Assembly: GCA_013213825.1 (NCBI GenBank)
Contig: JABSQA010000003.1
Span: 1-64,000, forward strand
DNA: 64,000 nt
Direction: 5' to 3'
Source: Henriciella sp.
Lineage (GTDB): Bacteria; Pseudomonadota; Alphaproteobacteria; Caulobacterales; Hyphomonadaceae
Below the pieces are notes generated by a model, which saw only the letters and a program-made list of their open reading frames with translations, was not told where the DNA came from and searched no databases. Shown in pieces: positions 44,244 to 47,817 of this stretch. The translations under genes were made by a program, and so were the position numbers. How positions within the stretch are numbered: the first letter of the stretch is position 1; the number at the start of each line of letters is the position of its first letter.

Positions 44244-45065
44244 ATGCCCCGCGGAAAAGGCAAAAACTCTGCCCCTGCTGAGGATATCGTGTTGGAACGG
44301 ACGCAAATCGCTTCCGTGATTTTCGGCATGGTCATGGTGATTGCATTGATTGTTGCGGGCGCGGCGAGGCTGGGCGGGTCTTTGTCACAGATCGGCAAAC
44401 GTTGGGGCAGTGCGGTGGATGGCGCGTCGCGATCTGTCGGTCTCTCAGTCGGCACAGTTGAAGTGATCGGACTGGAGCATGTTCCCGCGGTGGCCCGGCA
44501 GATCAAAACAGCGGCGATGATCGAGCCCGGAGAGAATATGTTCCGCGCGGATCCGCATATCATTCGCCGCCGAGTCGAAGACACCCAATTGGTCACCAAG
44601 GTCCGGGTCTACCGTCTCTGGCCTGATACGGTCATGATCTATGCCCACGCGGCGGAGCCGACAGCGCTTTGGAATGATGGCGAGCGGTGGGCCGTGGTTG
44701 ACAGTTTGGGGCGTATTATGACGCGCGCCAAGGCCGTGGATCATAGCCACTTGATCAAAACGACCGGCGCCGGTGGAGCTGAAGCGGTCCCTGCATTGGA
44801 AAAGGCCTTTGCCTTAGCGCCAGAGCTTCGATCGCACGTCAATTATGCGCGCCGCGTGGCCGAGCGTCGCTGGGACTTGGTGCTGAAATCCGGCGCTGTC
44901 ATGAAGCTGCCCACCGATGAGAGATTGTCCGCAAGTCTCCTTTTTTACGCGAAGATTGAGCCCTTGGCCGAACTGGCGCAACGTCCGATCAGCATCATCG
45001 ATTTGCGCGTGGCAGGCCGGGTATTTTTGACACCAAAAACAAATCAAATGGGGGGAGCAGCCTAA
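44244..45065 (+). CDS. ftsQ: Cell division protein FtsQ
   Basis: ORF 273 aa; N-terminal TM, POTRA-like VEVIGLEHVPAVARQIKTAAMIEPGENMFRADPHIIRRRVEDTQLVTKVRVYRLWPDTVMIYAHAAEPTALWNDG. Confidence 0.9.
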   Translation: MPRGKGKNSAPAEDIVLERTQIASVIFGMVMVIALIVAGAARLGGSLSQIGKRWGSAVDGASRSVGLSVGTVEVIGLEHVPAVARQIKTAAMIEPGENMFRADPHIIRRRVEDTQLVTKVRVYRLWPDTVMIYAHAAEPTALWNDGERWAVVDSLGRIMTRAKAVDHSHLIKTTGAGGAEAVPALEKAFALAPELRSHVNYARRVAERRWDLVLKSGAVMKLPTDERLSASLLFYAKIEPLAELAQRPISIIDLRVAGRVFLTPKTNQMGGAA

Positions 45066-46360
45066 TGGCGACGAGTGAACAGCGATTGAAACCAAGGCAT
45101 GTTGGCAAAGCGGGCACTGTGGTTGCTGCGCTTGATATTGGCTGTTCCAAAATCGCCTGTTTGATCGGTCGTGTTGATCCTGGCAGTCGGTCTGGTTTCT
45201 CTTTCATGGGCGGGGGGCGCCAACAAAGTCGTGGTTTCAATGGCGGCGGCATCACCGATATCGAAGACTGAGAACGCTCGATCCGCCTGGCGGTGGAGGA
45301 TGCGGAGCGCGAAGCGGGCGAACGAATTGACCGCGTTATCTTGGGAATCACAGGTCCCAAAGTCGATAGCCAATTGGCCGACGCGGAAATCGAACTCGGG
45401 CAACGCGAGATTAGCAGCAAAGACGTACAAAATGTCTGGGCCGAAGCGCTGAATAAGGTCGTGCCCAAGGATCGCGAACTCTTAGGCGCTTATCCCGTCA
45501 TGTATGGTGTGGATGATCAGGATGATATTCGCGATCCCGTCGGCATGATCGGCGATCGTGTTCGCGTATTGTTGAACATCGTCACGGCGCCCAAATCGCT
45601 TGTAAAGAACCTCAAAGAATGCGTGATGCGCGCACATCTTGGCATTGAACGCATCGTTCCTTCTGCCCTGGCGAGTGGTGCGGGGACATTGATTGAAGAC
45701 GAAATCGACAATGGCGCCATTTGTATCGATTTTGGCGGCGGCGTGACCTCTGTGTCTGTGTTCATGAATGGAGCGCCCGCTTGGCTGGACCTGGTCAAGG
45801 TTGGCGGATCGCGTGTGACCAGTGATATCGCTCAAGGAATTGGAACAACTTTCGCGGCAGCGGAACGCCTGAAGAACCTGCACGGAACAGCGGATAAAGA
45901 TGGCCCGGGCATGGCCGAACGGATTGAAGCGCCTGTGCTTGGTGATGATGGGCGCCTGAAAGCTGGGCGTATGACCCGCGGCGAGTTGACCGCAATGATT
46001 GAGCCGCGCGTCGAAGAGGTTTTCGAAATGGTCCAGGCGCATCTGACCGCCAGTCCCCTGCGCCCGATTATGCCGAGACGGACCGTTCTTACCGGGGGTG
46101 CGAGTCAGTTATCAGGCGTTCGCGACCTGGCCGCACGCGTGCTGAAGCAGCCCGTACGCCTCGGACGCCCGATAGATGCTGACATTTTAGGTGAAAATTT
46201 CGGTAATCCGGCCTTTTCCACAGCAGCAGGTCTGATAAGCTATGAAATTAGGGGATTTGCTGACGCATCCAAGGCTGGAGGTGCGGCGGCGCTGGCCGGA
46301 TCTGAGTCCGGGCGTGGAGTGATTGCTAAGGTCTTAAATTGGATCCGCGAAAATTTTTGA
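45065..46360 (+). CDS. ftsA: Cell division protein FtsA, interrupted by an in-frame TGA at 45269-45271
   Basis: Same-frame ORFs 45065-45271 (AALDIGCSKIACLIGR...GGGITDIED*) and 45293-46360 (EDAEREAGERIDRVILGITGP...GGGVTSVSVFMNG...LTGGASQLSGVRDLAARVL). Confidence 0.9.
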
Positions 46361-46461: not shown

Positions 46462-47817
46462 ATGACTAACGAACTCAAACCACGCATTGTCGTCATCGGC
46501 GTTGGTGGGGCTGGTGGAAACGCTGTCGACAATATGATCGAAGCCAACCTTCAGGGCGTGGAGTTCATCGTCGCCAATACGGACGCGCAGGCGATGCAGC
46601 GGTCCAAAACCGAAAACCGAATCCAGCTTGGTCTCGAAACCACTTCCGGTCTTGGCGCAGGTGCGCGGCCAGAAGTCGGCGAGGCGTCGGCACAAGAATC
46701 CATGCCTGAAATCTTGGAAGCCCTTGAAGACGTTCATATGGTCTTTGTCGCGGCTGGTATGGGCGGCGGCACCGGTACAGGCGCGGCGCCTGTAATTGCC
46801 AAAGCGGCGCATGATAAGGGCATTCTCACCATCGGTGTTGTGACCAAACCATTTGGATTTGAGGGCGCACATCGCATGGCGACCGCTGAAGCTGGTTTGA
46901 AGAATATGAAAGACGTGGTCGACACACTGATTGTTGTGCCGAACCAAAATCTTTTCCGCATTGCCAATGAGCGCTCCACATTTGCCGAAGCCTTCCGCAT
47001 GGCGGATGATGTATTGTATTCTGGCGTCCGCGGCATCACCGATTTGATGATCATGCCCGGCTTGATCAATTTGGATTTTGCCGATGTGCGCACGATCATG
47101 AAGGGCATGGGCACGGCCATGATGGGCATGGGTGAAGGCGAAGGCGAAGGCCGTGCGCTTGAAGCCGCTCGATCGGCGATCGACAATCCATTGCTCGACG
47201 ATGTGTCTATGGCCGGTGCGCAGGGTGTGTTGATCAATATCACGGGCGGCTATGACATGACCCTGTTCGAGCTCGATGAAGCCGCGAACGAGATCCGCCG
47301 CGAAGTCGACGCACATGCGAATATCATTCTCGGGTCAACATTCGATCCTGAATTGGAAGGCCGTATTCGCGTTTCTGTTGTTGCTGCGGGTGTGACGGAA
47401 CAAGCTGCGACTGTGGCCATCGCACCGAGTGTGTCGGAACCGGCATCGCAAGATATTCCTGTCGTCGTGAGCCAACCCGCGCCAAGCTCAACACCAATGC
47501 CAAGCGCTGCGCCGGAAATTGAGCCAGATCAACGTCCCGATTTTCGCGGGCGCGTCTTGCCAGCGGCGCACGTTGAGAGCCAACAAGGCAGCGATACAGT
47601 GAGTGCGGATGCTGCGTTCGCAAAGCCGGTTTCAGATAGCCCGGCCGGGTTCTCAAACCTATTTGGTTGGCGCCGTGAAGATGCCGTCGGGGACAATGAT
47701 AGCGACGAAGATAAGCCGTCTATTGTTTCGACCCCAGATGACCATCCTAAACCTGCTGATTTCGATGATGAAGACCTCGAAATCCCTGCATTTTTGCGAC
47801 GTTCGGCAAACACTTAG
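46462..47817 (+). CDS. ftsZ: Cell division protein FtsZ
   Basis: ORF 451 aa; [35 protein letters not shown], acidic/variable linker and C-terminal [13 protein letters not shown]. Confidence 0.98.

Follow-up and report, generated by a model that had tools for sequence, protein, structure and literature searches.

FtsA is an actin-family division protein for which an NCBIfam model (TIGR01174) and solved homologues (7q6d, 7q6g and 1e4f) are available, and its gene is expected to be a single continuous reading frame flanked by ftsQ and ftsZ in the division cluster. Isolated frameshift or nonsense artefacts are known in draft metagenome assemblies, and in-frame UGA codons are a regular feature of bacterial selenoprotein genes. 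In Caulobacter crescentus, an alphaproteobacterium, FtsA belongs to the essential proteins of division and the cell envelope (PMC8262945). The window analysed here, a stretch of 64,000 nucleotides from a Henriciella (Hyphomonadaceae) draft assembly, carries an ftsA whose two halves match the FtsA family in the correct order and with the same ftsQ-ftsZ synteny, and whose product is 88-89% identical to FtsA of the nearest Henriciella; however, the gene as assembled is not continuous, and differs from those of all relatives examined in that codon 69 is a TGA and codon 68 encodes Asp in place of Ala. Were this TGA real, the cell would be producing an essential actin-like division protein either by translating through a stop or from two separate pieces, a surprising outcome; as it stands, the case mainly cautions that a solitary stop in a conserved gene from a draft metagenome assembly should be compared with the reads before it is called recoding.

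The ftsA frame occupies positions 45065-46360 of the forward strand (431 codons plus the stop), as supported by translation, TIGR01174 and structure alignment, and its translation contains one internal stop besides the terminal TGA. The internal TGA lies at 45269-45271 and, as the initial annotation had claimed, is in frame with the ATG at 45065 and flanked by the codons quoted there. The part before the stop (45065-45271 with the TGA included) encodes the N-terminal 68 residues of FtsA, including the nucleotide-binding motif LDIGCSKIACLIG, and matches positions 2-47 of the 371 in TIGR01174. The conserved and intact remainder (45272-46360, 362 residues) continues the match at positions 51-371 with 264.7 bits, which is enough for the C-terminal piece to pass the cut-off by itself. 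When the stop is read through, residues 19-394, most of the length of the protein, align with solved FtsA structures. The neighbouring genes on the same strand, identified as open reading frames with profile matches, are both intact: ftsQ (44244-45065), whose stop codon overlaps the ftsA ATG, and ftsZ (46462-47817). The downstream frame proposed earlier as a reinitiation product also exists (GTG at 45293, forward strand, ending at 46360, 355 aa), but its start is an ordinary Val codon position and no purine-rich ribosome-binding site stands upstream of it.

Comparison with relatives showed that the lesion is larger than one codon. No internal stop was found in the FtsA matches across 60 related genomes. 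Codons 68 and 69 (45266-45271) are GAC TGA in the window and encode Ala and Leu in all 27 colinear relatives of the same length, and all 29 relatives from the genus and family with a protein read at the TGA site have Leu there. The homologue motif given in the initial annotation needs one correction: relatives read ITDIEALERSIR, with Leu where the window has its stop and Ala where the preceding codon now gives Asp. Measured against the 27 same-length relatives, the window departs from otherwise invariant columns at just four places, two of which are these adjacent codons. Over the six bases of this two-codon scar, each of the nine closest relatives differs from the window at 4 or 5 positions, with matching residues on either side. 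Since two adjacent codons were altered together, a simple point change or single-base event does not account for the scar. Five substitutions would describe it; the loss of one base and the gain of another nearby would do so more economically, although this second description is not statistically compelling (8% of random scars fitted equally well in trials). Two-residue changes with at least five of six bases different in a conserved context were found at 112 of 32,204 codon pairs compared with one relative; such changes are not rare against a single relative, and clustering alone is therefore no proof. What is unusual is that both columns of the scar are otherwise invariant.

The scar lies outside any homopolymer and preserves the total length of the gene. 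A chimeric join of two strains at this point was rejected, as third-position identity does not shift clearly across either side, and so was copying from elsewhere, as the 14-base stretch around the scar has no other match in the genome at up to one mismatch; near matches to this stretch within the window were at chance level. The mean dN/dS of the window ftsA against the nine relatives was 0.054 (0.034 to 0.065 for intact relatives), with 0.032 before the stop, where it was computable in only three of the nine pairs, and 0.062 after it (intact range 0.036 to 0.074). Judged by these ratios, the gene is not in decay, and normal purifying selection acts on both flanks.

The source assembly is a 3.6 Mb draft in 276 contigs with 93.8% completeness, and its named close relatives are metagenome-assembled genomes of Henriciella and other Hyphomonadaceae, in most of which the part of ftsA after the stop is 73-89% identical. 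A second ftsA, the search for which had been suggested as a check, was looked for in the whole assembly without success; a second copy was rejected, the sole other match being MreB. Among the related genomes, G048, G056 and G060, which belong to one genus of the same order, lack a convincing FtsA match (the best E value, about 1e-5, is at the level of MreB), and FtsA may be absent or strongly diverged in that genus. In G011, a member of the same genus as the window (87% complete, 590 contigs), no ftsA match besides MreB was found, which probably reflects assembly incompleteness.

The TGA is real in the assembled sequence and probably not in the organism: the reading preferred here, with a probability of about 0.62, is a local error of assembly or consensus calling in a fragmented draft metagenome. 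A few bases at one spot would have been miscalled and by chance have placed a TGA in frame, and the true ftsA would be continuous. Four things are seen directly, namely the TGA, the normal FtsA flanks, a scar over two otherwise-invariant codons and a single ftsA, and wrong base calls are what we infer as most likely from them. Such an error is supported by the strong constraint on both sides of the stop in a single-copy gene, by the simultaneous change of two adjacent invariant codons, unlike a single nonsense mutation, and by assembly defects elsewhere, which include, besides the 276 contigs, a 10-N gap in contig C2, unknown residues in selB and a conserved gene frameshifted at a C7 run. Like draft-metagenome artefacts, the locus is a single site that no relative shares, in an essential gene, and the assembly around it is fragmented and has a conserved gene broken by a frameshift elsewhere; unlike them, it is not at a homopolymer, the kind of site where sequencing errors are common, and gene length is kept. 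A low error rate also counts against it: in a sample of about 0.59 Mb of the assembly (167 conserved proteins, 59,345 codons, compared with G028), only one other convincing break was found, the C7 frameshift in the gene of a 285-residue protein (L146 687-1569, contig C135). Alignment of the other comparable window genes to relatives revealed no genuine break, and a generally error-prone window was rejected, the other apparent stops being start-site differences, upstream extensions or antisense open reading frames. Because assembly defects exist but are rare, the probability was not set higher. A literature search on truncated ftsA or on indel errors in metagenome assemblies returned nothing directly useful.

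The initial annotation had listed sequencing error, nonsense mutation, readthrough and a split FtsA, a list that is sound as far as it goes; it missed the two-codon change, which disfavours a single-base error or a single nonsense mutation, and did not consider selenocysteine. A real and recent nonsense allele, in which a small complex mutation would have impaired ftsA either in the strain sampled or in a fraction of its population, ranks second but is unlikely. In its favour, the base calls could be correct, the genes on either side show no break, complex mutations altering several adjacent bases do exist and the absence of decay elsewhere in ftsA would fit a recent event. As FtsA is essential in Caulobacter (PMC8262945), a null consensus allele would be hard to sustain; the assembly holds no second copy, neighbouring division genes are intact, and selection would act against such an allele. 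That the TGA is both real and tolerated, with division proceeding on a two-piece FtsA or by readthrough of UGA while the gene is continuous in all relatives examined, is improbable. UGA is generally the leakiest stop, and the frame 3' of the TGA is intact and constrained, so near-cognate misreading might be imagined to give enough full-length FtsA. This is improbable, given that no in-frame stop occurs in the FtsA matches of the 60 relatives, that RNA structure after the TGA does not exceed chance (z 0.27) and that no Rfam match was found at the site, by which a special downstream RNA structure or a known RNA family was rejected. A shortened, four-pair anticodon stem of tRNA-Trp has been reported to raise UGA readthrough (PMC13092985), whereas the single tRNA-Trp of this genome carries its CCA anticodon on a stem of five pairs (TCGGT/ACCGA), and its D stem is paired. 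A suppressor tRNA was likewise rejected, as a UCA anticodon is carried only by tRNA-Sec among the tRNAs scanned. Recoding of UGA throughout the genome had already been considered unlikely on the grounds that UGA ends ordinary genes, and this view holds: TGA terminates 36 of 132 conserved genes, RF2 (prfB) is present, neither its loss nor a tRNA-Trp with a UCA anticodon was detected, and genome-wide reassignment was rejected, the stop in ftsA being the only convincing one inside an aligned gene among the 167 conserved genes, which together hold about 59,000 codons.

That the N-terminal 68 residues and a C-terminal product started at GTG 45293 combine to form a functional protein with the actin fold is very unlikely. 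The GTG lies 21 bases 3' of the stop, near enough for termination-reinitiation to yield the 355-aa product, and structure alignment would place the break near the start of a helix and not in the nucleotide-binding motif. Nevertheless, neither a ribosome-binding site nor a new start codon has evolved before a GTG that in relatives is an ordinary Val position, the restart would cost a highly conserved helix its residues 69-76, and a split ftsA was seen in none of the 60 related genomes. Least credible is that codon 69 is read as selenocysteine, even though the genome shares the decoding machinery of selenoprotein-producing bacteria, with selA, selB and tRNA-Sec (UCA) side by side at 41589-44965 of contig C222 (L194, L206 and L214), and a hairpin downstream of the TGA passes a loose bacterial SECIS rule that 3.3% of background TGAs satisfy as well or better. 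Unlike the UGA sites of bacterial selenoproteins, this one has Leu and never Cys in relatives, including the selA-bearing G001, G006, G008, G015 and G024. The hairpin (-16.1 kcal/mol) is not specific to UGA either, for orthologues with a sense codon fold comparably or better (-7.4 to -23.8 kcal/mol), and it therefore comes from the coding sequence; Leu in relatives and the lack of a stronger hairpin together make selenocysteine unlikely. No FtsA is known to use this residue.

As for the selenoproteins served by the cluster on C222, the single molybdopterin oxidoreductase match has no internal TGA. selA is patchy in the genus, occurring in 7 of the 24 other genomes of the genus that were searched, including several close Henriciella, and G023 has two selA matches, on C6 and C200, one of them partial, possibly reflecting contamination or a duplicate.
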